A stretch of 64,000 bases of DNA from Pseudorhodoferax aquiterrae (lineage in GTDB: Bacteria > Pseudomonadota > Gammaproteobacteria > Burkholderiales > Burkholderiaceae_C), in assembly GCF_014652235.1 (NCBI RefSeq), contig NZ_BMYK01000005.1, forward strand, positions 124,001 through 188,000. The letters run 5' to 3'. Within the stretch, counting starts at the first letter, position 1, and each line of letters starts with the position of its first letter. Shown one piece after another: positions 3,486 to 23,025 of the stretch. A program made the translations under genes and the position numbers. The notes beneath the pieces were generated by a model. It was given only the letters and a program-made list of their open reading frames with translations. It made no database searches and was not told where the DNA came from.

Positions 3486-3525
3486 CAGGGCGGTGCCCGA
3501 CGCAAAAAACGTACCGGGGCCGGAT

Positions 3526-5103: not shown

Positions 5104-5227
5104 GCTTGCCTCCTTGGTATCCGGTTGTAAACCAAAAGGCACCGGTGGTGGGCGAGTTCAGACGAGATCGGGCCCTGGCGCCGAGCAGCCGCGCGGCGCC
5201 TCCGGGCGTGCGGGAGGGCCGCGTCCT

Positions 5228-6649: not shown

Positions 6650-7461
6650 GGATACAGCGCGTCTGCCAGCGCGCGCAGCGCCTGCACGCGCTCGGGTTGA
6701 TCCGACCAGGCCTGCACCAGCGCCAGCTCGCAGGCCACGCGGGCGGGCATACCGCCGGCGATCAGCTGGGCCGCGCGCACCAGCATGCGCATGGAGATGG
6801 CCTGGTCCGCGCCTTCGTCCAGCGCGCGTGTGCGCTCGGCCAGGCCCACCAGCCGCATCGCCTGCTCCACCGCCAGGCCGGACTCGTGCACCACGATGGC
6901 CACCTGGGCCGCCACCGGGGGCGGATCGAAGGCCATGGCCACGAAACGCTGGCGCGTGGCCGGCCGCAGGTCGCGCCCGGCCTGGGGGTTGTAGGAGACC
7001 ACCAGCTGGAAACGCGGGTGTGCCACCAGCAGTTCGCCGTTGCGCTCCAGCGGCAGCACGCGCCGCGTGTCGGCCAGCGGGTGCAGCACGGTGAGCGCAT
7101 CGGGCCGCGCCTCGATCAGCTCGTCCAGGTAGCACAGCGCGCCGTGGCGCGCGGCCAGCGTGAGCGGTCCGTCCTGCCAGCGCGTGCCGTCGGCGTCGAT
7201 CAGCCAGCGGCCCAGCAGGTCGCCGGCCGCCATGTCCTCGTGGCAGGCCACGGTGACCAGCGGCAGGCCCAGCGTCCAGGCCATGTGCTCGACGAAGCGC
7301 GTCTTGCCGCAGCCGGGCGGGCCCTTGAGCAGCAGGGGCAGGCGCAGGGCGCAGGCGTCCCGGAACTGCGCGACCTCATCACCGACCGGACGGTAGTAGG
7401 GCTCGTGCGCGATCCGCCACTGTGCCAGCGGATCGGCCGGTGCCTGCAGAACGGCGCTCAC
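6646..7461 (-). CDS. MoxR-family AAA+ ATPase (CbbQ/NorQ/AmiB-like)
   Basis: 271 residues. Walker A is [10 protein letters not shown], Walker B is [10 protein letters not shown], and the MoxR signature [18 protein letters not shown] includes the arginine finger region. The length matches CbbQ/NorQ (about 260-275). The start is the GTG at 7461, whose GTGA overlaps the amiE stop; its own stop overlaps the VWA start in the same way, so the three genes form a tightly coupled unit. In Pseudomonas aeruginosa the amidase operon also carries an AAA+ gene (amiB) after amiE, which supports a link to amidase function. Role by inference: ATP-driven remodelling or activation together with the VWA protein. 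Confidence 0.9.
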
Positions 7462-8495
7462 CGGTGCTGGGGCAACTGGTTCGGAATGCCCTCGATCGGG
7501 CATTCCGGCGTGCCCGGCGTGCTGCGCGTGATGGCCTCGACTTTCTTGCGCGTGCCCTCGGGGTCCTTGATCCAGTCGGCGTAGAAGCCATAGGGGCAGG
7601 CCGCCACGCCGTGCATGTCCTCGCCCGAATTGATCTTGCCCGTGTAGCCGCGGTGCAGCAGCTTGTACAGGTGGTTCTGCGACTGGCCGTTCTTGCGTGC
7701 GTCGCGGATCAGGTGCATGGAGAGTTCGGCGTAGTTGATGCCCATCTCCTCCTCGCCGCATTCGCCCAGCGTGCGGCCGTCGAAGCCGATCAGCGCGGAA
7801 TGGCCGAAGTACGAGTACACGCCGTCGAAGCCGGTGGCGTTGGCCACGGCCACGTAGCAGTTGTTCATGAACGCCATGGCCTTGGCCACCAGCACCTGCT
7901 GCTCCTTGGCCGGGTACATGTAGCCCTGGCAGCGCACGATGAGTTCGGCGCCCTTCATCGCGCAGTCGCGCCAGATCTCGGGGTAGTTGCCGTCGTCGCA
8001 GATGATGAGGCTGATCTTCAGGCCCTTGGGACCCTCGCTGACGTAGGTGCAGTCGCCCGGGTACCAGCCCTCCACGGGCACCCAGGGCATGATCTTGCGG
8101 TACTTCTGCACGATCTCGCCCGCATCGTTCATGAGGATCAGCGTGTTGTAGGGCGCTTTGTGCGGGTGCTCCTCGTGGCGCTCGCCGGTCAGCGAGAACA
8201 CGCCCCAGACCTTGGCCTTGCGGCAGGCCTCGGCAAAGATGGCCGTCTCCTCGCCGGGCACGGTGGCGGCGGTCTCGTACATCTCTTTGGCGTCGTACAT
8301 GATGCCGTGCGTCGAGTACTCCGGGAACACCACCAGGTCCATGCCCGGCAGCCCCTGCTTCATGCCGACCACCATGTCGGCGATCTTTCGCGCGTTGGCC
8401 AGCACCTCGGCCTTGGTGTGCAGGCGCGGCATCTTGTAGTTGACGACGGCGACGCCCACGCCGTCCTTGCTGCTGGAAATGTCGCCGTGGCGCAT
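7458..8495 (-). CDS. amiE: Aliphatic amidase
   Basis: 345 residues, the usual AmiE length, beginning MRHGDISSS as in the Pseudomonas enzyme. It hydrolyses short aliphatic amides (acetamide, propionamide) to carboxylate and ammonia. The nitrilase-superfamily triad is present: Glu in VVFPEYS, Lys in YRKIMPW and Cys in [10 protein letters not shown]. No signal peptide, so cytoplasmic. An AGGAG lies just upstream of the ATG. It is the first gene of the amiE-AAA+-VWA unit and diverges from the amide-importer operon across a 169-bp region holding a 16-bp palindrome, so import and hydrolysis are probably co-induced. No amiC/amiR genes are seen nearby, so regulation must differ from the Pseudomonas model. 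Confidence 0.97.
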
Positions 8496-8559
8496 CGCAT
8501 GGCTCCTGTCTGAAATGGGATCGGGCCACCAGTGTTCTCGCCTGTGGTGTGCCGCGCAC

Positions 8560-8575
8560 TACGTTGAATGACGTA
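8560..8575. promoter_or_regulatory. Palindromic operator TACGT-N6-ACGTA, amiE/amide-importer divergent promoter
   Basis: TACGTTGAATGACGTA. Its reverse complement differs at one base from the site at 15545-15560 before fmdB, and a third copy with the same 5-6-5 geometry precedes urtA (17870-17885). It sits about 65 bp upstream of amiE and 90 bp upstream of the binding-protein gene. It is a probable activator site shared by both directions. Confidence 0.65.
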
Positions 8576-8598
8576 TTCGGCCTGCGCAGGGTCGCGGA

Positions 8599-8604
8599 TA
8601 CCTT
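8599..8604 (+). promoter_or_regulatory. Predicted -10 element (TACCTT) for the amide-importer operon
   Basis: Matches TATAAT at positions 1, 2 and 6 and begins 24 bases after the palindrome ends (23-bp gap), the same gap as at fmdB and urtA. No good -35 is seen, as expected for an activator-dependent promoter. Alone it would be weak evidence; the shared spacing is what supports it. Confidence 0.45.
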
Positions 8605-8664
8605 CTGTTGCACCGCAGCACACCAAGTTCGGTGCCGCGAACGGTTCAACACAAAGGAGTGCCC

Positions 8665-9918
8665 ATGTCCGCTGATTCCCGTCCCGAGTCCCTGCTGCGC
8701 CGGCGCATGCTGCAGATGGCCGCCATGTCGCCCTTCGCCGGCCTGTCGGCCGCCGCGCTGGCGCAGCAGTTCCCCACCGCCAAGGTCAACACCACGGGCC
8801 TGGCCATCACTGACACCGAGGTGACGGTCGGCCAGCTGCACTCGGCCACCGGCACCATGGCCATCTCGGAGACCGGCTCGATCCAGGCCGAGCAGCTGGC
8901 CATCGACCAGATCAACGCCATGGGCGGCATCCTGGGCCGCAAGATCAAGGTCATCAAGGAAGACGGCGCCTCCGACTGGCCGACCTTCGCCGAGAAGAGC
9001 CGCAAGCTGCTCGTCAACGACAAGGCCGCCTGTGTCTTCGGGTGCTGGACCAGCGCCTCGCGCAAGGCCGTGCTGCCGGTGTTCGAGAAGGAGAACGGCC
9101 TCTTGTACTACCCCACCTTCTACGAAGGCCTGGAGCAGAGCAAGAACGTGATCTACACGGGCCAGGAAGCCACGCAGCAGATCATCTGGGGCCTGGACTG
9201 GGGCGCCAAGGAGAAGAAGGCCAAGACTTTCTTCCTGGTCGGCTCGGACTACATCTGGCCACGCACCTCGATGAAGATCGCGCGCAAGCACATCGAGACG
9301 GTCGGCAAGCTGGGCAGCGTGAAGGGCGAGGAGTACTACCCGCTGGGCCACACCAACTTCAACTCGCTGATCAACAAGATCAAGGTGGCCAAGCCCGACT
9401 GCATCTTCGCGGCCGTGGTGGGTGGCTCCAACGTGGCCTTCTACAAGCAGCTCAAGGCCGCCGGCATCACGGGCGACAAGCAGTTCCTGCTCACGCTGTC
9501 GGTGACCGAGGACGAGATGACCGGCGTGGGCGGCGACAACTTCGCCGGCTTCTACTCGTCGATGAAGTACTTCCAGTCGCTCGAGAACGAGAACAACAAG
9601 AAGTTCGTCGAGGCGTTCAAGGCCAAGTACGGCAAGGACGCCGTGATCGGCGACGTGACGCAGGCCGGCTACCTGGGCCCCTGGCTCTGGAAGGCGGCCG
9701 TCGAGAAGGCCGGAAGCTTCGACGTGAACAAGGTCACGGCAGCCTCGCCCGGCATCGAGCTCAAGACGGCGCCGGAGGGCTACGTCAAGCTCGATGCCAA
9801 CCACCACCTGTGGAGCAAGGCGCGCATCGGCCAGGGCCAGAAGGACGGCACCTTCAAGGTGGTCGCCGAGTCGTCGAACCTGATCGCACCGGACCCGTTC
9901 CCCAAGGGTTACCAGTAA
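8665..9918 (+). CDS. fmdD: Short-chain amide/urea ABC transporter, substrate-binding protein
   Basis: 417 residues, a type 1 periplasmic binding protein of the UrtA/FmdD/AmiC group (motifs TVGQLHSATGTMAISE, FGCWTSASRKAVLPVFE, LLYYPTFYEGLEQS). The N-terminus has three arginines before a hydrophobic stretch ending ALA, a Tat-like signal. The ATG at 8665 follows AAAGGAG; the upstream in-frame ATG at 8608 lacks a ribosome-binding site. It captures short amides or urea in the periplasm for the permeases that follow. It is paralogous to the UrtA at 17989. Presence of amiE and fmdA on either side suggests amides rather than urea as main ligand, but this is inference. Confidence 0.93.
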   Translation: MSADSRPESLLRRRMLQMAAMSPFAGLSAAALAQQFPTAKVNTTGLAITDTEVTVGQLHSATGTMAISETGSIQAEQLAIDQINAMGGILGRKIKVIKEDGASDWPTFAEKSRKLLVNDKAACVFGCWTSASRKAVLPVFEKENGLLYYPTFYEGLEQSKNVIYTGQEATQQIIWGLDWGAKEKKAKTFFLVGSDYIWPRTSMKIARKHIETVGKLGSVKGEEYYPLGHTNFNSLINKIKVAKPDCIFAAVVGGSNVAFYKQLKAAGITGDKQFLLTLSVTEDEMTGVGGDNFAGFYSSMKYFQSLENENNKKFVEAFKAKYGKDAVIGDVTQAGYLGPWLWKAAVEKAGSFDVNKVTAASPGIELKTAPEGYVKLDANHHLWSKARIGQGQKDGTFKVVAESSNLIAPDPFPKGYQ

Positions 9919-9927
9919 GCCACCCGG

Positions 9928-9952
9928 CCCTCTCCCGGCGGTCGGGGGAGGG
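9928..9952 (+). terminator. Hairpin between binding-protein and permease genes
   Basis: A nine-pair stem (CCCTCTCCC with GGGGGAGGG, one G-U pair), seven-base loop, followed by CGCTTCTT. It resembles a weak intrinsic terminator. Because the operon continues, it more likely lowers expression of the downstream genes or stabilises the binding-protein mRNA. Confidence 0.55.
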
Positions 9953-9983
9953 CGCTTCTTGACTTGTGGAGAGCGAGCGTGCC

Positions 9984-10898
9984 ATGACCATTTCCGAGAT
10001 GCTCAACATCGGCCTCATGCAGGGCTTCGCGGGCCTGTCCCTGTTCGCGGTGCTGCTGCTGATGGGGCTGGGCCTGGCCATCATCTTCGGCCAGATGGGG
10101 GTCATCAACATGGCGCATGGCGAGTTCATGGCCATCGGCGCCTACACCGTCTACATGGCCGCCACCTTCACCGAGCACCACGCGCCCGGCGCGATGGCAG
10201 CCTACTTCCCGGTCGCCATCGTGCTGGCCTTCCTGGTGGCCTTCTTCTTCGGCTGGCTCATGGAATGGGCGCTGATCCGCCACCTGTACAGCCGGCCGCT
10301 GGACACGCTGCTGGCCACCTGGGGCGTGAGCCTGGCGCTGCAGCAGTGCTTTCGCAGCTTCATCGGGCCCAAGGAAGTGAGTCCCACGCTGCCCGACTGG
10401 CTGATGGGCTCCTGGGCGCCCATGGAAGGCCTGGACATTCCGATCAACGGCATGTTCGTGCTGGGTCTGACGCTGGTGGTCACCGCCGGCGTGCTGCTCG
10501 CGCTGAACAAGAGCCGCTGGGGCCTGCGCGTGCGCGCCACGGTCAGCAACCGCACCATGGCCAACGCCACGGGCATCGACACCAAGAAGACCGACCGCCT
10601 GACCTTCGCGATCGGCTGCGGCATCGCCGGTGTGGCCGGCGCGGCCTTCACCACCATCGGCTCCACCGGGCCGACCTCGGGCTCGCTCTACATCGTCGAC
10701 GCCTTCCTGGTCGTCACCTTCGGCGGCGCCGCCAGCCTGCTGGGCACCGTGGTCTCGGCCTTCGGCATCGCGCAGACCCAGTCCATCACCGAGTTCTTCA
10801 TGAGCGGCTCGATGGCCAAGGTGCTCACGCTCTCCTTGATCGTGCTGATCCTGATGGTGCGCCCGCAAGGCCTGTTCGCTTCCAAAGTCCGCCGCTAG
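9984..10898 (+). CDS. fmdE: Amide/urea ABC transporter permease (LivH/UrtB family)
   Basis: 304 residues of hydrophobic branched-chain-amino-acid-type permease. Motifs: IFGQMGVINMAHGEFM near the N-terminus, SRPLDTLLATWGVSLALQQ in the middle and a C-terminal MVRPQGLFA. The ATG at 9984 has GGAGAG upstream; the GTG at 9966 is in frame but has no ribosome-binding site. Unlike the UrtB at 19340 it lacks the long periplasmic N-terminal extension. It forms the inner-membrane channel with the next gene, powered by the two ATPases. Confidence 0.92.
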   Translation: MTISEMLNIGLMQGFAGLSLFAVLLLMGLGLAIIFGQMGVINMAHGEFMAIGAYTVYMAATFTEHHAPGAMAAYFPVAIVLAFLVAFFFGWLMEWALIRHLYSRPLDTLLATWGVSLALQQCFRSFIGPKEVSPTLPDWLMGSWAPMEGLDIPINGMFVLGLTLVVTAGVLLALNKSRWGLRVRATVSNRTMANATGIDTKKTDRLTFAIGCGIAGVAGAAFTTIGSTGPTSGSLYIVDAFLVVTFGGAASLLGTVVSAFGIAQTQSITEFFMSGSMAKVLTLSLIVLILMVRPQGLFASKVRR

Positions 10899-10907
10899 AG
10901 GTTCCGT

Positions 10908-12086
10908 ATGAAAGAACTGATCCACCGTTACCAGTTGGCCAGCGTGCTGCTGCTGACCATCCTGCTGGTCATCGTCCTGCCGTTGTCGCTCGACATCTTC
11001 CGCCTGAACCTGGTCGGCAAGTACCTCTGCTACGCCTTCGTCGCGGTGGGCCTGGTCATGGTGTGGGGCTACGGCGGCGTGCTGAGCCTGGGGCAGGGCG
11101 TGTTCTTCGGCCTGGGCGGCTACGCCATGGCCATGTTCCTCAAGCTCGAGGCCTCCGACCCCGAGAGCACCAAGATCCAGTCCACGCCCGGCATTCCGGA
11201 CTTCATGGACTGGAACCAGCTGACCGAGCTGCCGACCTTCTGGCTGCCGTTCAAGAGTCTGCCGCTGTCGCTGCTGCTGGTGGTGCTGGTGCCCATGGCG
11301 CTGGCCTGGCTGATCAGCTTCGCGATGTTCAAGCGCCGCGTGGGCGGCGTGTACTTCGCCATCATCACGCAGGCCGTGGCGCTGATTCTCACGGTGCTCA
11401 TCATCGGCCAACAGGGCTACACGGGCGGCGTGAACGGCATGACCGACCTCAAGACCCTGCTGGGCTGGGACATCCGCACCGACAGCGCCAAGACCATCCT
11501 GTACTTCGTCTGCGTGGCGCTGCTGATCGCCAGCATCCTGCTGTGCCGCTGGATCCAGACCAGCAAGCTGGGCACGCTGCTGCTGGCCATGCGCGACAAG
11601 GAAGACCGCGTGCGCTTCTCGGGCTACGACGTGTCCAACTTCAAGGTGTTCACCTTCTGCCTGGCGGCGGCGCTGTCGGGCATCGGCGGTGCACTGTTCA
11701 CGCTGCAGGTGGGCTTCATGTCGCCCACGCTGGTCGGCATCGTGCCCTCGATCGAGATGGTGATCTTCGCGGCCGTGGGCGGGCGCATGAGCCTGGTCGG
11801 CGCGGTCTACGGCGCGCTGCTGGTCAATGCCGGCAAGACGCTGTTCTCCGAAAGCTTTCCGGACCTGTGGCTGTTCCTGATGGCCGCATTGTTCATCGGC
11901 GTGACCATGGCCTTCCCGATGGGACTGGCCGGTGTCTGGGAGGACAAGGTCAAGCCCTGGTGGCGCAGTCGCCGAGCCGCGCACAAGGCCTACGACGAGC
12001 AACTGCTGGCCCGCCGCCGTGCAGAAGCCGCCGCCGTGGTCGAGACCACACCGCCCGCTGCCAACACGCAAGGAGCGCATGCATGA
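10908..12086 (+). CDS. fmdF: Amide/urea ABC transporter permease (LivM/UrtC family)
   Basis: 392 residues. UrtC/LivM motifs are visible: VWGYGGVLSLGQGVFFGLGG, FKRRVGGVYFAIITQAVAL, and GTLLLAMRDKEDRVRFSGY (the EAA-like cytoplasmic loop). A polar tail of about 40 residues, rich in Arg and Ala, follows the last membrane helix. It begins nine bases after fmdE. Its stop codon overlaps the start of a 22-codon mini-ORF (ATGA at 12083). Confidence 0.92.
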   Translation: MKELIHRYQLASVLLLTILLVIVLPLSLDIFRLNLVGKYLCYAFVAVGLVMVWGYGGVLSLGQGVFFGLGGYAMAMFLKLEASDPESTKIQSTPGIPDFMDWNQLTELPTFWLPFKSLPLSLLLVVLVPMALAWLISFAMFKRRVGGVYFAIITQAVALILTVLIIGQQGYTGGVNGMTDLKTLLGWDIRTDSAKTILYFVCVALLIASILLCRWIQTSKLGTLLLAMRDKEDRVRFSGYDVSNFKVFTFCLAAALSGIGGALFTLQVGFMSPTLVGIVPSIEMVIFAAVGGRMSLVGAVYGALLVNAGKTLFSESFPDLWLFLMAALFIGVTMAFPMGLAGVWEDKVKPWWRSRRAAHKAYDEQLLARRRAEAAAVVETTPPAANTQGAHA

Positions 12087-12151
12087 GCGCCGCGCCGGGC
12101 CGCCCCAAGCAAGCTCGCACCGCAGTGCGCAGCACGGAGGTTTTCCAATGA
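12083..12151 (+). CDS. Bridging mini-ORF with PGRPKQAR motif
   Basis: 22 codons. Its ATG overlaps the upstream permease stop (ATGA at 12083-12086), and its own TGA overlaps the ATG of the downstream ATPase (ATGA at 12148-12151). The peptide opens MSAAPGRPKQAR. A second ORF with the same opening and the same double overlap lies at 40677-40757 between unrelated genes. A small hairpin (CGCAC-CGCA-GTGCG) and the ATPase ribosome-binding site (CGGAGG) lie within it. Whether the peptide or the RNA/DNA repeat is the conserved unit cannot be told here. Confidence 0.5.
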   Translation: MSAAPGRPKQARTAVRSTEVFQ

Positions 12152-12891
12152 GCAACACCGACTTCGCCCTGGCCGTGGAAGACCTCACGGTCGCCTTCGA
12201 CGGCTTCAAGGCCATCGACAGCCTGACCCTGTACGTGGACCGGAACGAGCTGCGCGTGATCATCGGCCCCAACGGCGCGGGCAAGACCACGCTGCTGGAC
12301 CTGATCTGCGGCAAGACCAAGGCCAGCGCCGGCTCCATCAAGTTCAAGAACACCGAGCTGACCGGCATGGCCGAGCACAAGCGCGTGCGCTTAGGCATCG
12401 GCCGCAAGTTCCAGACTCCCTCGATCTACGAGAACCTCTCGGTGTTCCAGAACCTGGAAGTGTCCTACCCCTCGGGCCGCTCGGTGCTGGGCGCGCTGGC
12501 CTTCAAGTGCACGGACCAGGTCAAGGCCCGCGTGCAGGTGGTGGCCGAGGACATCGGCCTGGCGGACAGGCTGCAAACCGAGGCCGGCCTGCTGTCCCAC
12601 GGCCAGAAGCAGTGGCTGGAGATCGGCATGCTGCTGATGCAGGAACCCGAACTCCTGATGCTGGACGAGCCCATCGCCGGCATGAGTTCGCGCGAGCGCG
12701 AGCTGACGGCCGAGCTTTTGAAGCGCATCAGCCAGAACCGCGCCGTGATCGTGATCGAGCACGACATGGACTTCGTCGCGCAGATCGCGCACAAGGTCAC
12801 CGTCATGCACCAGGGAAAGATCCTCGCCGAAGGGCCGATGGACAAGGTGCAGGCCGATCCCAAGGTCATCGACGTCTACCTGGGGCATTGA
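12148..12891 (+). CDS. Amide/urea ABC transporter ATPase (LivG/UrtD family)
   Basis: 247 residues, one complete ABC ATPase: Walker A GPNGAGKTT, signature LSHGQKQWLEIGMLL, Walker B LLMLDEPIAGMS and a switch His in VIEHDMDFV. The signature LSHGQ instead of LSGGQ is typical of UrtD-type subunits and is also found in the paralogue at 22152. The ATG at 12148 is eight bases after CGGAGG. It forms the ATPase pair with the gene at 13231, from which it is separated by 339 bp of repeats. Confidence 0.92.
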   Translation: MSNTDFALAVEDLTVAFDGFKAIDSLTLYVDRNELRVIIGPNGAGKTTLLDLICGKTKASAGSIKFKNTELTGMAEHKRVRLGIGRKFQTPSIYENLSVFQNLEVSYPSGRSVLGALAFKCTDQVKARVQVVAEDIGLADRLQTEAGLLSHGQKQWLEIGMLLMQEPELLMLDEPIAGMSSRERELTAELLKRISQNRAVIVIEHDMDFVAQIAHKVTVMHQGKILAEGPMDKVQADPKVIDVYLGH

Positions 12892-12940
12892 GATGAAGCT
12901 GTGGCAGCTTGGTCGTGCGACGGCGGTTGCACGTGATGCG

Positions 12941-13027
12941 CAAGGCGGCGGGGCACCCCATCGCTCCGTGTCCCCCGGCCTGGCGGCCTCCTCCTTGACC
13001 TGCGCGATGGGGTACCCCACCGCCTTG
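12941..13027. repeat. Long imperfect palindrome A with 29-bp core
   Basis: Arms 12941-12964 and 13004-13027 are inverted repeats matching at 21 of 24 bases. The loop contains a 29-base core at 12968-12996 ending CCTCCTCCTT. The same core occurs as a perfect reverse complement at 13106-13134 in palindrome B, though B has different arms. The stretch 12892-13230 has no convincing gene and holds these two elements. Confidence 0.75.
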
Positions 13028-13071
13028 CTCGGCGTTGGCTCATCGTCGACACGTGCAGCCGCCGGTGGCCT

Positions 13072-13164
13072 GCTCGGGGTGTGGGTGGGGGCGTCCACGA
13101 AGGTAAAGGAGGAGGCCGCCAGGCCGGGGGACACGCAGTGGACGCCCCCACCCGCAGCCCGAGC
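13072..13164. repeat. Long imperfect palindrome B with inverted 29-bp core
   Basis: Arms 13072-13098 and 13138-13164 match at 25 of 27 bases, including an unbroken 16-base pairing (GGGTGGGGGCGTCCAC). The enclosed core at 13106-13134 is the exact reverse complement of the core of palindrome A. It lies about 65 bp before the ATPase start at 13231. REP/MITE-like intergenic repeats would look like this; no transposase is nearby. Confidence 0.75.
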
Positions 13165-13230
13165 TCCCGCCCGCCTTTATCCCCTGAATCCCAGCCTTGT
13201 GAAGGCCGCGCAACGCCGTGGAGAACTGAC

Positions 13231-13932
13231 ATGAGCGACATCCTTCTGAACGTCAACGACATCCACACCGCCTACGGTCAGAGCGAGGCGCTGCATGGCA
13301 TCAGCTTCGCTGCCCACGCGAACGAGACCGTGGCCATCATGGGCCGCAACGGCATGGGCAAGACCACCCTGTTCAAGAGCCTCATGGGCATCCTGCCGCT
13401 CAAGAGCGGCAGCATCCAGGTGGCGGGGCAGGACGTGTCGAAGGACGAGAGCTTTCGCCGCGTGGCCAAGGGCATCGCTTACGTGCCGCAGGGCCGCATG
13501 ATCTTTCCGACATTGACGGTCGAGGAGAACATCCAGACCGGCCTGCAGAGCGGCCCCAGCCTGCGCGTGCCGGACGAGATCTACGCGCTGTTCCCGGTCC
13601 TCTTCGAGATGAAGAAGCGCAAGGGCGGCAACCTGTCGGGCGGCCAGCAGCAGCAGTTGGCCATCGCGCGCGCGCTCGTCACCAACCCCAAGGTGCTGCT
13701 GCTGGACGAGCCGACCGAAGGCATCCAGCCTTCCATCATCAAGGACATCGCCAAGGCCCTCAACGAGATCCGGCGCATGAAGGGCATCGCCATCGTGGTG
13801 TCCGAGCAGGTGCTGTCCTTCGCGATGGACGTGGCCGACCGCCTGTTCGTGATCGAGGGCGGCCGCCTCGTGCACGAGACCGCGCGCGACAAGACCGACA
13901 TCGCGCACATCAAGCGCTACCTCTCTGTCTGA
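13231..13932 (+). CDS. Amide/urea ABC transporter ATPase (LivF/UrtE family)
   Basis: 233 residues. Walker A GRNGMGKTT, signature NLSGGQQQQLAIARAL, Walker B VLLLDEPTEGIQPSII; the last is diagnostic of UrtE/LivF subunits. GTGGAG precedes the ATG. It completes the first importer (one binding protein, two permeases, two ATPases). Similar in length to the UrtE at 23026 but not a recent duplicate. Formamidase follows 24 bases later, so imported amide would be hydrolysed by products of the same operon. Confidence 0.92.
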   Translation: MSDILLNVNDIHTAYGQSEALHGISFAAHANETVAIMGRNGMGKTTLFKSLMGILPLKSGSIQVAGQDVSKDESFRRVAKGIAYVPQGRMIFPTLTVEENIQTGLQSGPSLRVPDEIYALFPVLFEMKKRKGGNLSGGQQQQLAIARALVTNPKVLLLDEPTEGIQPSIIKDIAKALNEIRRMKGIAIVVSEQVLSFAMDVADRLFVIEGGRLVHETARDKTDIAHIKRYLSV

Positions 13933-13956
13933 TTTTTCACAACCAGGAGCCACCAG

Positions 13957-15186
13957 ATGCCCGAAACCCTGATCAAGGTCGACCTCTCCCAGCCCGCGCC
14001 GAGCAACGAGCTCGTGCACAACCGCTGGCATCCCGACATCCCCATGGCCTGCTGGGTCAATCCGGGCGACGACTTCGTGCTGGAGACCTACGACTGGACG
14101 GGCGGCTTCATCCAGAACAACGACAGCGCCGACGACGTGCGCGACATCGACCTGACCACCGTGCACTACCTCAGCGGCCCGGTCGGTGTGAAGGGCGCCA
14201 AGCCCGGCGACTTGCTGGTGGTGGAGCTGCTGGACATCGGCGCCAAGCAGGACAGCCTGTGGGGCTTCAACGGCTTCTTCAGCAAGAAGAACGGCGGCGG
14301 CTTTTTGACCGAGCACTTCCCGCAGGCGCAGAAGTCGATCTGGGACTTCCACGGCATGTTCACGACCTCGCGCCATGTGCCGGGCGTGAAGTACGCGGGC
14401 CTGATCCACCCGGGCCTGATCGGCTGCCTGCCCGACCCCAAGATGCTGGAGACCTGGAATGCGCGCGAGCAGGCGCTGATCGACTCCGACCCGGCCACCA
14501 GCGGCCTGGCCAACCCGCCTTTCGCGGGCACGGCCCACATGGGCAAGCTCACGGGCGAGGCCAAGGCCAAGGCGGCCGCCACGGGTGCGCGCACCGTGCC
14601 GCCGCGCGAGCACGGCGGCAACTGCGACATCAAGGATCTGTCGCGCGGCTCCAAGATCTTCTTCCCGGTCTACGTGGACGGGGCCGGCCTGTCGGTCGGC
14701 GACCTGCACTTCAGCCAGGGCGACGGCGAGATCACCTTCTGCGGCGCCATCGAGATGGCCGGCTGGGTGCACATGAAGGTCACCGTCATCAAGGACGGCA
14801 TGGCCAAGTACGGCATCAAGAACCCGATCTTCAAGCCCAGCCCCATCGTGCCGACCTACAACGACTACGTGATCTTCGAAGGCATCAGCGTGGACGAAAG
14901 CGGCAAGCAGTACTACCTGGACGTCAACGTGGCCTACCGCCAGGCCTGCCTGAACGCCATCGAATACCTCAAGAAGTTCGGCTACTCGGGCGCCCAGGCC
15001 TACTCCATCCTGGGCACGGCCCCGGTGCAGGGCCACATCAGCGGCGTGGTGGACGTGCCCAACGCCTGCGCCACGCTGTGGTTGCCGACGCAGATCTTCG
15101 ACTTCGACATCAACCCGAGCGCAGCCGGGCCGACCAAGTTCCTGGACGGCTCGGTGCAGATGCCGCTGTCGCCCGACCTGGTCTGA
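13957..15186 (+). CDS. fmdA: Formamidase
   Basis: 409 residues, matching the acetamidase/formamidase family (Methylophilus FmdA is of similar size). It hydrolyses formamide to formate and ammonia. Recognisable segments: HNRWHPDIPMACWVNPGDDF, VHYLSGPVGVKGAKPGDLLV, PPREHGGNCDIKDLSRGSK, VDGAGLSVGDLHFSQGDGE and the C-terminal LGTAPVQGHISGVVD. No signal peptide. The ATG follows AGGAG. Last gene of the importer operon; with AmiE this gives two enzymes for different short amides. Confidence 0.96.
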   Translation: MPETLIKVDLSQPAPSNELVHNRWHPDIPMACWVNPGDDFVLETYDWTGGFIQNNDSADDVRDIDLTTVHYLSGPVGVKGAKPGDLLVVELLDIGAKQDSLWGFNGFFSKKNGGGFLTEHFPQAQKSIWDFHGMFTTSRHVPGVKYAGLIHPGLIGCLPDPKMLETWNAREQALIDSDPATSGLANPPFAGTAHMGKLTGEAKAKAAATGARTVPPREHGGNCDIKDLSRGSKIFFPVYVDGAGLSVGDLHFSQGDGEITFCGAIEMAGWVHMKVTVIKDGMAKYGIKNPIFKPSPIVPTYNDYVIFEGISVDESGKQYYLDVNVAYRQACLNAIEYLKKFGYSGAQAYSILGTAPVQGHISGVVDVPNACATLWLPTQIFDFDINPSAAGPTKFLDGSVQMPLSPDLV

Positions 15187-15198
15187 GCCTGCGGGGCC

Positions 15199-15221
15199 GC
15201 GGCATGATGTCGTCATGCCGC
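15199..15221 (+). promoter_or_regulatory. Hairpin burying the start codon of the next gene
   Basis: Perfect nine-pair stem (GCGGCATGA with TCATGCCGC) and five-base loop. The ATG of the gene at 15215 lies in the 3' arm. There is no T-tract, so it is not a classic terminator. It could limit translation initiation of the small gene or act as a boundary after fmdA. Confidence 0.45.
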
Positions 15222-15538
15222 GCCCGCACCACCATGTCTACGTCGTCCAGCTCGCCGACCCTGTGTGGAACAGCGCGCGCTTTCGTGCTGCCAACCCGGA
15301 CTACCAGCTCGGCAAGCCCTTCGTCTACGTGGGCATGACGGGCCTGGACCCGGACATCCGCTTCGACAAGCACAAGGCCGGCATCCAGGCCAACCGCTTC
15401 GTGATGCTGTACGGCGAGCGGCTTCTGCCGGCGCTGTACGCGCGCTACAACCCCATGCCCTACCAGGCCGCGCGGGAGATGGAGGTGGAACTCGGCATCC
15501 GCCTGCGCGCGCAGGGCTTCGGCGTGTGGCAAGGTTGA
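15215..15538 (+). CDS. Small GIY-YIG-like protein
   Basis: 107 residues. The order VYVVQLAD, then FVYVGMTGLDPDIRFDKHKAG resembles the GIY-YIG fold (a YVV strand, YVG strand, then Arg and His), followed by conserved-looking LPALYARYNPMPYQ and a Glu in AAREMEVELG. That pattern is weak, and nuclease activity is not established. No clear ribosome-binding site; the start is inside a hairpin. It lies between fmdA and the fmdB promoter. It could equally be an unrelated conserved hypothetical. No membrane segment or signal is seen. Confidence 0.7.
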   Translation: MPRPHHHVYVVQLADPVWNSARFRAANPDYQLGKPFVYVGMTGLDPDIRFDKHKAGIQANRFVMLYGERLLPALYARYNPMPYQAAREMEVELGIRLRAQGFGVWQG

Positions 15539-15544
15539 AGCGCC

Positions 15545-15560
15545 TACGTCATTCGACGTA
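15545..15560. promoter_or_regulatory. Palindromic operator TACGT-N6-ACGTA before fmdB
   Basis: TACGTCATTCGACGTA, extended to CTACGT...ACGTAG. It is 15/16 identical to the reverse complement of the site at 8560-8575. Both sites are followed by CGGCCTGCGCAG. Distance to the -10-like hexamer at 15584 is 23 bp. Confidence 0.65.
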
Positions 15561-15583
15561 GTGCCCGGCGCGGCCGGCCTGCG

Positions 15584-15589
15584 CAGAAT
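15584..15589 (+). promoter_or_regulatory. Predicted -10 element (CAGAAT) for fmdB
   Basis: Four of six matches to TATAAT, 23 bp beyond the palindrome. The predicted transcript would begin near 15596, giving a leader of under 30 bases to the fmdB ATG. No -35 is evident. Confidence 0.45.
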
Positions 15590-15622
15590 GGCCCGAACTT
15601 TCCCACCGACCGGACCCTGGCC

Positions 15623-15967
15623 ATGCCCACCTACGACTACGACTGCCCCGATTGCGGCGGCTTCGACGCCTTCCGCACGCTGGCCCAGCGCAACGAGCCG
15701 GCCGCCTGCCCGGACTGCGGCACCTCCTCGCCGCGCGTGTTCGTGAGCGCGCCGCGGCTGGCACTCATGGACGGCCGCACCCGTGCGGCCATCGGCGTCA
15801 ACGAACGCGCGCGGCACGAGCCCAAGAGCTCGCGCGACTACCAGCGCATGCGCCACCCGGCCGGCTGTGGTTGCTGCAGCACGGGCGGCAAGCGCTCGTC
15901 CACGGTCACGGCGCCGAACGGGGCCAAGGCCTTCCCCTCCAAGCGGCCCTGGATGATCAGCCACTGA
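15623..15967 (+). CDS. fmdB: FmdB-family zinc-ribbon protein
   Basis: 114 residues. The N-terminal FmdB zinc ribbon is clear: MPTYDYDCPDCGGFDAF followed by PAACPDCG. The tail is basic and contains a second Cys cluster (AGCGCCS). FmdB was described in Methylophilus as a regulatory protein of the formamidase locus; family members are now thought of as small zinc-ribbon proteins of unclear activity. It has its own promoter palindrome, so it may be expressed apart from fmdA. Its 3' end overlaps the convergent LysR gene by 11 bases. Confidence 0.92.
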   Translation: MPTYDYDCPDCGGFDAFRTLAQRNEPAACPDCGTSSPRVFVSAPRLALMDGRTRAAIGVNERARHEPKSSRDYQRMRHPAGCGCCSTGGKRSSTVTAPNGAKAFPSKRPWMISH

Positions 15968-16823
15968 GGCGGACCGAACGCAGGGTCTGCACCAGCATGC
16001 GGTGCAGGCTGTCCACGGCCTGCGAGCCTTGCGAGGCCTTGCTGCGGTAGACGGCCACCTGCATGGGCTCCATGGGCCCCAGGCTGTGTTCGAGGCCCAG
16101 CACCTGCAGGTGCTCCGGTGCGCTGCACTGCGTGAGGGCCGCCACCGCCAAGCCGCTTTCCACGGCGGCGATCTGGCCCGCGAGGCTGGAGCTGTTGTAG
16201 ACCACCTTGTAGGGCCGGCCCTGCTGGGCGAGCGCGTGCAGCGCACTGCGCCGGCCCAGGCTCTCGGCTTCGTAGACCGCGATCGGCAAGGGCGTGCGCC
16301 GCCAGATTTCGAACTGCGGCGAGCCGACCCAGACCATGGGTTCGTGGAACAGCAGCATGCCGCGCCGCGCATGGTCGCGCGAGACCAGGGCCAGGTCCAG
16401 GTCGCCACTGGCCACGCGCGGGATCAGCGAGGTCGATTGCTCGCAATCGAGCTGGATCTCCACACTGCCGTGGCGTGGCGCGAAGCGCTTGAGCACCGGC
16501 GTCAGGTACTTGCTGGCGTAGTCGTCCGGTACGCCCAAACGCACCTGGCCCGAGATCGTCTCTCCCTGCAAGGTGGCCTGGGCCTCGGCCTGCAGTTCCA
16601 GCATGCGCCGCGCGTAGCCCAGCAGCTGCTGGCCGTCGGGCGTGAGCTGCAGGTGGCGCGGCCCGCGCGCAAGGAGCGGCCGGCCGACGGCCGCCTCGAG
16701 CTTCTTGAGCTGCATGCTGACGGCCGACTGCGAGCGGTGCACCTGCAGCGCGGCGCTGGACAGCGAGCCGGCGTCCACACAGGCGACGAAGGCCCTCAAC
16801 CAGTCGATCTGCAGGTCGTGCAT
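15957..16823 (-). CDS. LysR-family transcriptional regulator
   Basis: 288 residues from the ATG at 16823 (MHDLQIDWLRAFV). The N-terminal winged helix-turn-helix is clear (SLSSAALQVHRSQSAVSMQL), followed by the LysR effector domain. The longer in-frame start would add 20 residues without family support. It diverges from the EamA exporter at 16898, the usual arrangement for a LysR regulator and its target. The effector is unknown; control of the exporter is the simplest inference, and a link to the amide genes is only by position. Confidence 0.92.
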   Translation of the reverse strand: MHDLQIDWLRAFVACVDAGSLSSAALQVHRSQSAVSMQLKKLEAAVGRPLLARGPRHLQLTPDGQQLLGYARRMLELQAEAQATLQGETISGQVRLGVPDDYASKYLTPVLKRFAPRHGSVEIQLDCEQSTSLIPRVASGDLDLALVSRDHARRGMLLFHEPMVWVGSPQFEIWRRTPLPIAVYEAESLGRRSALHALAQQGRPYKVVYNSSSLAGQIAAVESGLAVAALTQCSAPEHLQVLGLEHSLGPMEPMQVAVYRSKASQGSQAVDSLHRMLVQTLRSVRLSG

Positions 16824-16897
16824 GGATTCGATTACCGCATGGCAGGGCTGCGAATTATCCGCTTTCCATGGGGGTTGGCGCACGGCACAGTGCCGCC

Positions 16898-17851
16898 ATG
16901 TCCCTCTCTCACCTGTCCGCGCCGACCCATGGTGCGCTCGACGCCCGCGCCACCGGCGTCATGGCGCTGCTGTGCCTGCTCTGGAGCCTGCAACAGATTT
17001 CGCTCAAGGCCGTGGCCGACGCGGCCAGCCCCATGCTCATGGTCGCGCTGCGCTCGGGCATCGCGCTGGTGCTGCTGGCCGGGCTGATGGCGCGCCGCGG
17101 CGAGGCGCCGCAGCGGGCGCGCTACGGCGCCGGCCTGCTCGTCGGTGCACTGTTCGGCGTCGAGTTCCTGCTGGTCAGCACTGCGCTGGAATTGACCCAG
17201 GCGGCGCACGTGGTCGTGTTCCTCTACACCTCGCCGATCTTCGCGGCCCTGGGCCTGCAGTGGCGGCTGCCGGCCGAGCGCTTGGGGGCGCTGCAGTGGC
17301 TGGGCATCGGTCTGGCCTTCGGCGGTATCGCCGTGGCGTTCCTGGGCGGGCAGGGCGGCGCGGCCGGCGGCCGGCCGCAGGCCTGGCTCGGCGACCTGCT
17401 GGCCTTGGCGGCCGGCGCCGCCTGGGGTGCGACCACGGTGGCGATCCGCTGCACGTCGCTGGCCAGCGCGCCGGCCACCGAGACGCTGCTGTACCAGTTG
17501 CTGGGCGCCTTCGTGCTGCTGCTGCCGGCGGCCTGGCTGCTGGGGGAGTGGCGCTTCTCGCCCACGCCCGCGGTGTGGGCGCACCTGGGCTTCCAGGGCG
17601 TGGTGGTGTCGTTCGCCAGCTTCCTGACCTGGTTCTGGTTGCTGCGGCGCTACCTGGCCTCGCAACTCGGCGTGTTCTCGTTCCTCACGCCCTTGTTCGG
17701 CGTGCTGCTGGGCGTCTGGCTGCTCGGCGAAGCGCTGGCGCCGGGCTTCGCGGCCGGCGGCGGCCTGGTGCTGGCCGGCATCGCGCTGGTCGGCGGGCAT
17801 GCGGCGCTGGCGCGGCGGCTGGCGGCCGTGCGGGGGCTCGCCCCGCGCTGA
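16898..17851 (+). CDS. EamA/DMT-family transporter
   Basis: 317 residues with about ten membrane helices in two EamA repeats (GVMALLCLLWSLQQISLKA in the first; GDLLALAAGAAWGATTVAIR in the second). It is probably an inner-membrane exporter of small metabolites, as for RhtA/YdcZ-type proteins; substrate unknown. The ATG at 16898 was preferred over 16868 because it starts just before the first helix and leaves 74 bp for a divergent promoter with the LysR gene. Confidence 0.9.
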   Translation: MSLSHLSAPTHGALDARATGVMALLCLLWSLQQISLKAVADAASPMLMVALRSGIALVLLAGLMARRGEAPQRARYGAGLLVGALFGVEFLLVSTALELTQAAHVVVFLYTSPIFAALGLQWRLPAERLGALQWLGIGLAFGGIAVAFLGGQGGAAGGRPQAWLGDLLALAAGAAWGATTVAIRCTSLASAPATETLLYQLLGAFVLLLPAAWLLGEWRFSPTPAVWAHLGFQGVVVSFASFLTWFWLLRRYLASQLGVFSFLTPLFGVLLGVWLLGEALAPGFAAGGGLVLAGIALVGGHAALARRLAAVRGLAPR

Positions 17852-17869
17852 TCTGCCCCAAGCACCACA

Positions 17870-17914
17870 TACGCCACCTGGCGTACAGACCCTTTTCGGG
17901 GTTCTCCCTAGGAT
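17870..17914 (+). promoter_or_regulatory. urtA promoter: palindrome TACGC-N6-GCGTA plus -10
   Basis: TACGCCACCTGGCGTA (17870-17885) has the same 5-6-5 layout as the amiE and fmdB sites. TAGGAT at 17909-17914 follows after 23 bp, the same gap as at those promoters. With a start near 17921 the palindrome centres at about -43, a class II activator position. The urtA ATG is about 68 bases further on. Confidence 0.6.
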
Positions 17915-17988: not shown

Positions 17989-19260
17989 ATGCAACGCAGC
18001 TTCACCATCAAGGCCACCGCTCTGGCCAGCGCCGCCATCGCCCTGGCCGGCCTCGCCGCCGTTCCCGCCTTCGCGCAGGACACCATCAAGGTCGGCGTGC
18101 TGCACGCGCTGTCCGGCACCATGGCGATTTCCGAGACGGCGCTCAAGGACATGGCGCTGATGACCATCGAGGAGATCAACGCCAAGGGCGGCGTGCTGGG
18201 CAAGAAGCTCGAGCCCGTGGTGATCGACACGGCCTCCAACTGGCCGCTGGCGGCCGAGAAGGCCAAGCAGCTCATCACCCAGGACAAGGTGGCCGTGACC
18301 TTCGGCTGCTGGACCTCGGTCTGCCGCAAGTCGGTGCTGCCGGTCTATGAAGAGAACAACGCGCTGCTCTACTACCCCGTGCAGTACGAGGGCGAAGAGC
18401 TGTCCAAGAACGTGTTCTACACGGGCGCAGCGCCGAACCAGCAGGCCATCCCCGCCGTGGAGTACCTGATGGGCAAGGAAGGCGGCTCGGCCAAGCGCTG
18501 GGTGCTGCTGGGCACGGACTACGTCTACCCGCGAACGGCCAACAAGATCCTGCGCGCCTTCCTGAAGTCCAAGGGTGTGGCCGACGCCGACATCATGGAG
18601 ACCTACACCCCCTTCGGCCACAGCGACTACCAGACCATCGTTGCCGACATCAAGAAGTTCAGCACCGGCGGCAAGACGGCCGTGATCTCCACCATCAACG
18701 GCGACTCCAACGTGCCGTTCTACAAGGAACTGGGCAACGCGGGCCTGTCGGCGAAGAACGTGCCCGTGGTGGCCTTCAGCGTGGGCGAGGAAGAGCTGCG
18801 CGGCCTGGATCCCAAGCCGCTGGCCGGCCACCTGGCCTCGTGGAACTACTTCATGAGCGTGAAGAACCCGACCAACACGGCCTGGATCAAGCAGTGGAGC
18901 GACTACGCCAAGGCCAAGAAGCTGCCGGGCCAGTCCACCAAGCCGCTGACCAACGACCCGATGGAAGCCACCTACGTGGGCATGCACATGTGGAAGCAGG
19001 CCGTGGAGAAGGCCAAGTCCACCGACCCGGACAAGGTCATCGCCGCCATGGCCGGCCAGACCTTCAACGCGCCCAGCGGCTTCACGCTGACCATGGACGC
19101 CAAGAACCACCACCTGCACAAGCCCGTGCTGATCGGCGAGATCCGCCCGGACGGCCAGTTCAACGTGGTGTGGCGCACCAAGGCCCCGATCAAGGCCCAG
19201 CCCTGGAGCCCCTTCATCGAAGGCAACGACAAGAAGAAGGACGAGCCCGAAAAGAAGTGA
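17989..19260 (+). CDS. urtA: Urea ABC transporter, substrate-binding protein
   Basis: 423 residues with a Sec signal peptide (hydrophobic run, cleavage after AFA at about residue 29). UrtA motifs: IKVGVLHALSGTMAISETAL, FGCWTSVCRKSVLPVYEE, LLYYPVQYEGEE, GTDYVYPRTANKI. GGGAG lies eight bases before the ATG. It binds urea (or short amides) in the periplasm for UrtBCDE. It shares its domain and many motifs with the binding protein at 8665 but has a Sec rather than Tat-like signal. No urease genes are in the window, so imported urea must be degraded by enzymes encoded elsewhere. Confidence 0.95.
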   Translation: MQRSFTIKATALASAAIALAGLAAVPAFAQDTIKVGVLHALSGTMAISETALKDMALMTIEEINAKGGVLGKKLEPVVIDTASNWPLAAEKAKQLITQDKVAVTFGCWTSVCRKSVLPVYEENNALLYYPVQYEGEELSKNVFYTGAAPNQQAIPAVEYLMGKEGGSAKRWVLLGTDYVYPRTANKILRAFLKSKGVADADIMETYTPFGHSDYQTIVADIKKFSTGGKTAVISTINGDSNVPFYKELGNAGLSAKNVPVVAFSVGEEELRGLDPKPLAGHLASWNYFMSVKNPTNTAWIKQWSDYAKAKKLPGQSTKPLTNDPMEATYVGMHMWKQAVEKAKSTDPDKVIAAMAGQTFNAPSGFTLTMDAKNHHLHKPVLIGEIRPDGQFNVVWRTKAPIKAQPWSPFIEGNDKKKDEPEKK

Positions 19261-19339: not shown

Positions 19340-20938
19340 TTGCGAAGTTGGACAAGGGCTTTGGCCGCAGCATGCATCGGGTGGGCCGTGGCCATGCTGC
19401 CGGCGCACGCGCTCACGAACGAGGCCGCGCTGGCCATGGCCTCGGGCACCTCGTCCGTGCGCATCGAGGCCATCACGGCGGCCGTGATCGAGGCGGTCGA
19501 GAAGGGCGACGACAAGACCGAGGCCTTCCTGAAGGCCATGGCCGATGACAGCGTGCGCTTCACGGCCGACAAGGTCTTCGTCGTGCAAGGCGACAAGGGC
19601 ATCGACCCGGTCACGGGCGCAGAGCTGCCGCTGCCGGCCGATGCGGAGGACGTGGTCAACAACAACCTCATGCGCAGCGAGCTGGACGTGGCGCTGGCCG
19701 CGCTGCAACTGCGCAGCAGCGACACCGCCGTGCGCGCCGAGGCCGCACGCGCGTTGGCGGGCGCCCCGTCCGAAGCGCGCGTGCCCCTGGTCCAGAAGGC
19801 GCTGGCGACCGAGAAGGACGCTGGCATCCGCGAACAGCTGGAACTGGCCCAGGCCGGCGGCCTGCTCGGCAGCGAGGACCCGGCCAAGCGCCTGGCCGCC
19901 GCCACCACACTTTCCGAGAACAAGCGCCCGGCCACCAAGCTGCTGCTCAACGAACGCCTGGCCGAGGAGCAGGACCCGGCCGTCAAGAAGGCCATCGTGG
20001 CGGCGATTGCCAGCATCGACGCCGGCCTGGTCTGGGGCGAACGCCTGGGCCAGGCCTTCACGGGCGTGAGCCTGGGCTCCATCCTGCTGCTGGTGGCGCT
20101 GGGCCTGGCCATCACCTACGGCCTCATGGGCGTGATCAACATGGCCCACGGCGAGCTCATGATGATCGGTGCCTACGCCACCTACGTGGTGCAAGGCCTG
20201 TTCCAGAAGTACCTGCCGGGCGCCTTCGACGCCTACCTGATCGCCGCCATCCCGGCCGCCTTCCTGAGCTCGGCACTGGTCGGTGCCATCCTCGAGCGCG
20301 GCGTGATCCGCTTCCTGTACGGCCGGCCGCTGGAGACGCTGCTGGCCACCTGGGGCATCAGCCTGGTGCTCATGCAGCTCGTGCGTTCGACCTTCGGCGC
20401 GCAGAACGTGGCTGTGGAAAGCCCATCCTGGATGAGCGGCAGCGTGCAGCTGCTGCCCAACCTTGCGCTGCCCTGGAACCGCGTGCTCATCATCGTGTTC
20501 GCATTGCTGGTGCTTGGCGCCGTGGCCTGGATGATCGGCCGCACGCGGCTGGGCCTGTTCGTGCGCGGCGTGACGCAGAACCGTCCGATCGCCTCGTGCA
20601 TGGGCGTGAACACCGCGCGCATCGACACCTACGCCTTCGCGCTGGGCTCGGGCATCGCGGGCCTGGCCGGCTGCGCGCTGAGCCAGGTCGGCAACGTGGG
20701 CCCGGACCTGGGCCAGAGCTACATCGTCGATTCCTTCATGGTCGTCGTGGTCGGCGGCGTGGGCCAGCTGGCGGGCACGGTCTACGCCGCGCTGGGCCTC
20801 GGCATCCTGAACAAGCTGTTCGAGGGCTGGGCCGGCGCGGTGCTGGCCAAGATCGCCGTGCTGGTCCTCATCATCGTCTTCATCCAGAAGCGGCCCCAGG
20901 GCATCTTCGCGATGAAGGGCCGCAGCGCAGAAGCGTGA
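19340..20938 (+). CDS. urtB: Urea ABC transporter permease UrtB
   Basis: 532 residues. It starts at TTG 19340, preceded by AGGGGG, with a signal-like N-terminus (ALAAACIGWAVAMLPAHA). Residues about 25-235 are a periplasmic extension with HEAT-like helical repeats (AARALAGAPSEARVPLVQKAL), characteristic of UrtB. The LivH-type permease follows (ITYGLMGVINMAHGELM, GRPLETLLATWGISLVLMQ, QKRPQGIFAMKG). Its stop overlaps an in-frame GTG of the next gene. Confidence 0.94.
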   Translation: MRSWTRALAAACIGWAVAMLPAHALTNEAALAMASGTSSVRIEAITAAVIEAVEKGDDKTEAFLKAMADDSVRFTADKVFVVQGDKGIDPVTGAELPLPADAEDVVNNNLMRSELDVALAALQLRSSDTAVRAEAARALAGAPSEARVPLVQKALATEKDAGIREQLELAQAGGLLGSEDPAKRLAAATTLSENKRPATKLLLNERLAEEQDPAVKKAIVAAIASIDAGLVWGERLGQAFTGVSLGSILLLVALGLAITYGLMGVINMAHGELMMIGAYATYVVQGLFQKYLPGAFDAYLIAAIPAAFLSSALVGAILERGVIRFLYGRPLETLLATWGISLVLMQLVRSTFGAQNVAVESPSWMSGSVQLLPNLALPWNRVLIIVFALLVLGAVAWMIGRTRLGLFVRGVTQNRPIASCMGVNTARIDTYAFALGSGIAGLAGCALSQVGNVGPDLGQSYIVDSFMVVVVGGVGQLAGTVYAALGLGILNKLFEGWAGAVLAKIAVLVLIIVFIQKRPQGIFAMKGRSAEA

Positions 20939-20943
20939 ACACC

Positions 20944-22151: not shown

Positions 22152-22155
<4 letters not shown>
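20944..22155 (+). CDS. urtC: Urea ABC transporter permease UrtC
   Basis: 403 residues from the ATG at 20944; a GTG at 20935 overlapping the urtB stop is an equally possible start three codons earlier. A Pro-rich stretch (about 22-30) precedes the first helix. Motifs: DLIWGYTGILSLGHGLFFAL, IKGVYFSIITQALTF, GRVLQAIRDAESRVMFSGY. It forms the inner-membrane channel with UrtB. The stop overlaps the urtD start (ATGA). Confidence 0.94.
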
Positions 22156-23024
<869 letters not shown>

Positions 23025-23025
23025 G

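Follow-up and report, generated by a model that had tools for sequence, protein, structure and literature searches.

Palindromes and nitrogen genes of the window

Three palindromes of the form TACGYN6RCGTA were identified before amide and urea genes in a 64-kb window of the Pseudorhodoferax aquiterrae genome (the whole stretch analysed, G000:C5:124001-188000, whose own positions are used below). These predicted operators, to which no strand is assigned, lie at 8560-8575 (A1, TACGTTGAATGACGTA), 15545-15560 (A2, TACGTCATTCGACGTA) and 17870-17885 (B1, TACGCCACCTGGCGTA), and were the only exact matches in the window, where 0.02 would be expected (mean of 100 dinucleotide shuffles). The third site differed consistently from the first two, with TACGCC..GGCGTA against TACGT..ACGTA. 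The -10-like hexamers TACCTT, CAGAAT and TAGGAT each start exactly 23 bp after their own palindrome. Both the three palindromes and this spacing had been described in an earlier note on this DNA and were confirmed here, the spacing recurring in other genomes as well.

A1 is an A-type site between the divergent aliphatic amidase gene amiE (7458..8495, minus strand; NF009802, 715.5 bits vs cut-off 427) and an ABC transporter operon on the plus strand. The operon encodes a UrtA-like substrate-binding protein (SBP1, 8665..9918), followed by UrtB-, UrtC-, UrtD- and UrtE-like permeases and ATPases assigned by profiles (9966..13932) and by the formamidase gene fmdA (13957..15186, plus strand; NF045496, 743.3 bits vs cut-off 500); it was called amide-type because amiE and fmdA (FmdA/AmiE) adjoin it. 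A1 was identical in the congeners G001 and G003. On one side TACCTT (8599..8604, plus strand) faces the ABC operon at a conserved position, and on the other side, again 23 bp from A1, AACACT (8531..8536, minus strand) faces amiE; this hexamer and its distance are unchanged across G000, G001 and G003, and there is a minus-strand match to the composite pattern described below. Since A1 and both flanking hexamers are identical in three species, A1 looks like a two-way operator. The leader at 8605-8625 right after the -10 (CTGTTGCACCGCAGCACACCA) was also identical in three species and was conserved above the surrounding stretches.

A2, likewise of A type, precedes fmdB. Its core was altered in G001 (TACGTTGTTTGACGTA) with both half-sites retained, and its hexamer CAGAAT (15584..15589, plus strand) was identical in three species. 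The gene behind it (15623..15967, plus strand) encodes, by its translation, an FmdB-like zinc-ribbon protein of 114 aa; we take it to be fmdB from its sequence and place, no profile having been applied to that frame, and its homologues adjoin FmdA in other genomes. B1, of B type, precedes urtA and was identical in G001, G003 and G004, with TAGGAT (17909..17914, plus strand) identical in four species. The gene urtA for the urea ABC substrate-binding protein (17989..19260, plus strand) reached 573 bits vs 492.75 for TIGR03407 with the longer open reading frame (ORF), and urtB, urtD and urtE (20048..23724, plus strand) were above the cut-offs of TIGR03409, TIGR03411 and TIGR03410, the urtC region between them not being scanned separately. 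Curated profiles were used for all these assignments, that is amiE, the UrtA/B/C/D/E-like set, fmdA, urtA, urtB, urtD and urtE.

Two kinase/regulator pairs were recognised. RR-A, a NarL/FixJ-type response regulator of 323 aa, starts in the window (1..171, minus strand) and runs past its left edge, the whole gene lying at G000:C5:123200-124171 (L008:5200-6171). It carries Response_reg and GerE domains (REC PF00072, 1.4e-23; GerE PF00196, 1.9e-18), and so does RR-B; NarL itself is composed of a REC domain and a LuxR-type helix-turn-helix. HK-A, a hybrid histidine kinase (99..3581, minus strand, with the start codon possibly at 3485), is laid out as an NCS1-like transporter-type sensor domain, a Cys-rich segment, HisKA, HATPase_c and REC. 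The second pair, HK-B/RR-B, was located outside the window at G000:C5:110628-115101, about 9 kb to the left; RR-B and RR-A are paralogues with 49% identity.

In the whole 7.1-Mb genome the palindrome was found at seven positions, three of them being the window sites. The other four (L001, L005, L006 and L007) were labelled by reading the sequence, no profile results being at hand: L005 and L006 appear coding, and some 1.3 kb separate L007 from the end of contig 33. At L001 (L001:1501-1516, G000:C4:457782), CTACGTACACTGGCGTAG stands just before a frame which we take to be metallo-beta-lactamase-fold-like, with no -10 at 23 bp. The same 16-bp sequence occurred in G004, and at L001 it may belong to another regulator.

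Predicted operator types and paralogous regulators across genomes

When the sites from the window and from 60 relatives were sorted, two forms appeared, A (TACGTYRN2YRACGTA, as at 8560 and 15545) and B (TACGCCN4GGCGTA, as at 17870). One set of 200 family genomes was searched for both forms and for both regulators, with cut-offs of E < 1e-80 for RR-A (37 genomes) and E <= 1e-78 for RR-B (97 genomes); among the 44 genomes with RR-A matches, seven had only weaker ones, located at their RR-B, and were left out. Form A was present in 35 of the 37 RR-A genomes vs 5 of the 163 others, and form B in 72 of the 97 RR-B genomes vs 15 of the 103 others (site with regulator, regulator alone, site alone and neither: 35, 2, 5, 158 for A; 72, 25, 15, 88 for B). 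As 33 of the 200 genomes had already been seen when the patterns were defined, the other 167 were counted separately. Among these, A occurred in 27/29 RR-A genomes and 3/138 others (27, 2, 3, 135; Fisher 1.5e-25), and B in 62/84 RR-B genomes and 12/83 others (62, 22, 12, 71; Fisher 3.2e-15), although such values overstate the certainty because related genomes are not independent. Four genomes in the RR-B count (G091, G109, G112 and G202) matched at just 50-52% identity, the one gene of G109 being counted as RR-A too; without them the table became 70, 23, 17, 90.

Genomes with a single regulator separated the two forms. A was found in nine and B in three of the RR-A-only genomes (n=10), while the RR-B-only genomes (n=70) held A in 3 and B in 52. 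With both regulators (n=27) A was present in 26 and B in 20, and with neither (n=93) in 2 and 12, respectively. In G004, of the same genus, the best match to the RR-A query was RR-B, and RR-B, the B site and urt were retained; no exact A site was found there, nor any amide-type genes within the 20 kb fetched. Of the A sites listed in RR-A genomes, 42/48 lay within 20 kb of RR-A. The earlier note had named the kinase/regulator pair at the left edge as the natural candidate for all three promoters. Conservation in orthologous promoters was found, A and B recurring before amide and urea genes of related genomes, and the left-edge regulator did co-occur with the palindrome; this candidate was supported for the two amide-type sites and not for the urt site, nor was a single regulon with urtABCDE in it supported. 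The urt site appears to be of a second operator type, which co-occurs with the different paralogous pair outside the window.

Most exceptions for form A could be traced. Five genomes had A and no RR-A call. In G062 and G187 the RR-A match is broken in two by a divergent middle part, in G008 it shows an apparent frame change, and in G097 HK-A and an amide-type binding protein adjoin the site where the contig ends; G023 was the only orphan, its 12 kb of examined sequence containing nothing recognisable. A was missing from two RR-A genomes. In G078 the HK-A match is interrupted, and the amide genes searched for were all absent from the 17 kb examined; G109 has the symmetric variant TACGACGAATGTCGTA before urtA. 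Reversed-pattern controls gave at most 3 matches per genome for A, mostly 0, and up to 8 for B, so a B match says little by itself unless it stands in a urtA promoter. In G127, six of the eight B-pattern matches (both strands counted once) shared the core TACGCCTGACGGCGTA at scattered places, which is perhaps a dispersed repeat and not an operator.

Targets and spacing were also read from loci selected by pattern only, 30 for A (one each from 30 of the 40 genomes with a match) and 30 for B (from 30 of 87 genomes), six in each set coming from genomes already seen at pattern definition. An amide or urea target lay within 300 bp in 29/30 A loci, with xAnnnT at +23 in 26/30; 25/30 B loci were before urtA, and all 25 of these had xAnnnT at +23. 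In a larger, partly regulator-selected set of target-oriented sites, xAnnnT at +23 was found for 75/88 A, 31/31 B and 14/16 other sites, and the next-best offset for A, 24, reached 20/88. Among 300 genomes of the order, the composite of A, 23 bp and xAnnnT was matched 25 times, in 16 genomes, and its reversed control six times. The 23-bp spacing is not chance. On the kinase side xAnnnT stood at +23 in 17/64 A sites vs 7 at the next-best offset, a suggestive figure on which no claim of kinase-gene autoregulation from that site is based. A third motif of several family genomes, TACGCTGAA(C/A)TACGTA, was set aside, since in the loci examined (L014, L015) it coincides with the beginning of a conserved reading frame; the situation at L017 was similar on the other strand.

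The regulators themselves fell into two groups. In 25 proteins picked from the top whole-protein matches without a helix filter, the recognition helix was RTVNK in 13/13 RR-A and [AMG]T[VI]KK in 12/12 RR-B, widening to [AMG]T[VIA]KK for RR-B in a larger set. From 149 gathered regulators, helix-biased ones included, six without a readable helix were dropped, and in the tree of the remaining 143 helix K formed a single clade (37 rows, support 100), helix N being the other 106. This was a quick tree with a midpoint root; helix N with the A operator would be the simpler ancestral state, because alphaproteobacterial helix-N systems have A-type sites before urtA. A one-residue code, in which the helix residue after T-V/I/A (N, K or T) would determine base 5 of the operator (T, C or A), was rejected, being broken in the phylum-wide sample by RTVTK with TACGCA-type sites (L328, L348 and L349) and by RTV/INK with TACGCA (L325 and L339). 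Only the N/K split stands, within the Burkholderiales-centred sample. The symmetric variant TACGACGAATGTCGTA was seen with helix RTVTK before urtA at L140:5181 and L282:4186.

Beyond the family, 80 named RR-A-type loci were collected by a scan with peptide patterns including RTVNKHLE, and are thus helix-biased. Strict A was present in 53, only the looser TACGYN6RCGTA in 15, and neither in 12, some of them on short contigs. The RR-A-type loci L095-L098 come from Variovorax. The site was mostly between HK-A and the amide-type operon in the Burkholderiales loci mapped. Many Rhizobiales and Devosia loci and one Acetobacteraceae locus had an A-type site before urtABCDE, and in many alphaproteobacterial loci the same type of kinase and regulator, together with the A-type site, precedes urtABCDE. 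In a phylum-wide sample of 398 genomes, 49 had a regulator of the RR-A/RR-B family (E <= 1e-70); 30 loci were fetched from 29 of the 49, and 23 of them carry an amide- or urea-type binding protein. The operator and its spacing appear to be well kept in Burkholderiales and many alphaproteobacterial loci, with drift elsewhere.

Kinase sensor domain and known systems

The N-terminal 658 residues of HK-A gave no Pfam family match, and 17 homologues gave only weak or short unrelated ones; at E up to 1 the 18 homologues together matched 10 Pfam families, and SSS was not one of them. No solved structure matched the sensor by sequence beyond one chance-level match (E 6.2). NCS1 was not recognised by sequence in either Pfam or PDB. 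The AlphaFold2 model of the N-terminal part (mean pLDDT 74) was compared by Foldseek, and the five best chains were Mhp1 and CodB (2jln, E 3.5e-8; 7qoa_A, TM (target) 0.74). SLC5-type SiaT was weaker than Mhp1 (1.9e-5 vs 3.5e-8), and the plant urea transporter DUR3 came ninth (4e-5). The HK-A sensor thus models as an NCS1-type transporter fold; the sensor part of HK-B is homologous to it, the fold comparison being made on HK-A only. In HK-A, HisKA is preceded by the Cys-rich segment and by two further predicted helices, and no named domain was found between the transporter part and HisKA by Pfam, which may or may not include a STAC model.

An EAL and PAS protein (3526-5142, minus strand) is encoded between HK-A and the amide genes and was retained in the congener G003 (87% identity, L073), which hints at a cyclic-di-GMP link. 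Downstream of amiE lie two frames (5228-7400, minus strand) that presumably resemble a MoxR/CbbQ-type AAA+ ATPase and its partner, possibly an amidase-associated chaperone pair. Pfam gave nothing for the frame 5228-7135.

Among the nearest parallels are transporter-type sensor kinases. In the available part of the source, the CrbS/CrbR acetate system of Pseudomonas and Vibrio consists of a hybrid kinase with a transporter domain and a LuxR-family regulator, and CrbR of Pseudomonas acts from an imperfect inverted repeat that spans -52 to -36 and directly precedes an RpoD promoter (PMC5715377). The system described here shares the transporter-fused hybrid kinase, the LuxR-family regulator, the predicted position of the repeat and an uptake gene among the predicted targets. 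As far as the available text on CrbS goes, however, CrbS has an SLC5 domain and a STAC domain, whereas the sensor model here is nearest NCS1 (Mhp1, CodB) and is followed by a Cys-rich segment; the operator sequence also differs, and the targets here are for amide/urea uptake. The present system would work like CrbS/R and was not filed as SLC5/STAC, because the SLC5 domain was tested for and not found. The RpuS/RpuR pyruvate system of Sinorhizobium, according to the accessible portion of its report, likewise combines a transporter-type hybrid kinase, a LuxR-family regulator and an uptake operon, but differs by its SLC5/STAC sensor, an imperfect direct repeat and a pyruvate symporter as target (PMC9100948). 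E. coli NarL, in the part of the paper available, shares with the sites here the inverted 7-2-7 repeat of 16 bp, and one of its sites adjoins the -35 with its centre at -44.5, much as predicted here; half-site, kinase type and signal are different (PMC7419079).

Two clusters resemble the present one by their genes. Methylophilus fmdCABDEF also joins formamidase and amide/urea ABC uptake in one cluster; formamide and urea induce it and ammonia represses it, and the portion of the review at hand names only an in-cluster 'putative positive regulator', the term 'two-component' being absent from that text (PMC10781810). In the urt cluster of Dechloromonas aromatica, the neighbours of UrtA include a histidine kinase of 1131 aa and a CheY-like receiver of 308 aa; their sizes match those of the HK and RR here, the likeness being one of size and place only, and the available part of the paper assigns the pair no role or operator (PMC2907700). 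An open-access literature search, with subscription papers mostly outside its scope, recognised no such regulator pair or operator for amides or urea.

Proposed mechanism, rival explanations and meaning

The finding is real, and stronger than the sequence alone could tell, but the window is better read as containing parts of two parallel regulons rather than one. It is likely that two paralogous two-component systems act as class II activators, system A for amide-type and system B for urea uptake. The NCS1-like domain would sense a ligand and pass the signal by phosphotransfer to the NarL-type regulator; the likely signal would be a short-chain amide or urea, or its flux, because HK-A carries the NCS1-like sensor domain and HK-B a homologous one. 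RR-A with HK-A would then bind type A at A1 and A2, and RR-B with HK-B type B at B1. Each predicted operator is a 16-bp inverted repeat of the NarL 7-2-7 shape, on which a regulator dimer would cause class II activation, not repression. Since the site ends 23 bp before the -10, the operator centre lies 31 bp before the -10 start; provided that the hexamers are the real -10s, this would place it near -43, with a weak -35 immediately downstream, and the class II geometry given in the earlier note is supported. From A1, a bound dimer could act both ways, switching on amiE on one side and the amide-type ABC-fmdA operon on the other; A2 would serve fmdB, and B1 would serve urtABCDE.

Several observations weigh against this reading. 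SBP1 (ORF 8608-9918) exceeds the cut-off of the urea UrtA model TIGR03407 too (521.1 bits vs 492.75), so the division of substrates into amide and urea is inferred. RR-B lay within 20 kb of the compared B site in only 26 of 49 RR-B genomes with a listed B site; the strict B site is absent in 25/97 RR-B genomes and present in 15/103 others, and 5/30 inspected B matches were not before a recognised target. At 13/88 A sites xAnnnT at +23 was absent. The match between helix and operator loosens in the phylum-wide sample, where a TAC-type palindrome was upstream in only 11/23 loci with a target, with xAnnnT at +23 in 4/11. Finally, in G085 an A site and a B-like site both precede urtA, so that cross-regulation is possible.

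If RR-A alone bound all three sites, A and B would be degenerate versions of one motif in a single amide/urea regulon. The outer bases TACG..CGTA and the spacing are common to A and B, the operons adjoin, and A-type sites precede urt in many alphaproteobacterial loci, as does the A site of G085. The distribution of B between the genomes with one regulator only, the retention of the B site and urt with RR-B in G004 and the different recognition helices make such a single regulator rather unlikely. In G085 (L284:5002 and 5086) the B-like TACGCAAGGTGGCGTA (TAGTCT at +23) and the A site (CATGCT at +23) are 84 bp apart, and joint control of this urtA by both systems is possible; some cross-binding between the paralogues may occur. 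It is quite improbable that another factor binds the palindromes, or that NtrC with sigma-54 drives the operons and the palindromes are secondary, given that the palindromes follow RR-A/RR-B closely in their occurrence and stand at a fixed distance from a sigma-70-like -10, although no systematic search for -24/-12 promoters and NtrC enhancer sites was made. A regulon reconstruction does assign to NtrC, in several taxa, the genes for urease and for the urea ABC transporter, in the part of the source available (PMC5343134), and for this reason general nitrogen control may be layered on top of the two systems. Chance or coding coincidence can hardly account for the sites, even though some genome-wide matches look coding or unexplained, such as L006, which we take to be ribosomal-protein-like, and the frames around L014/L015. 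It is contradicted by the three matches against 0.02 expected, by the homologous targets behind the pattern-only A and B matches elsewhere, and already by the regulator co-occurrence, including the 167 genomes outside the pattern definition.

Taking the two paralogous systems as the preferred reading, we lean slightly towards a widespread two-component family, in which an NCS1-fold kinase senses amides or urea and which was duplicated in Burkholderiales. The helix of the urea copy (RTVN to ATVK) and its operator (TACGT to TACGC) would have changed together, while the other copy would have kept the A operator and taken the amide genes.

Urea and short-chain amides are scavenged for nitrogen by many kinds of bacteria, which probably use the switches to turn this scavenging on. 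In the literature examined, as far as the available texts go, its regulation was ascribed only to general nitrogen control or to an unproven in-cluster regulator. Offered here are candidate dedicated regulators, predicted operators to the base, start-site predictions and a paralogue pair whose DNA specificity appears to have diverged. They open two questions directly to experiment: the signal read by a kinase with the shape of a transporter, and the means by which duplicated regulators stay free of cross-talk. If the duplication reading is true, the two systems would be a natural case of paralogue insulation, testable residue by residue and base by base.

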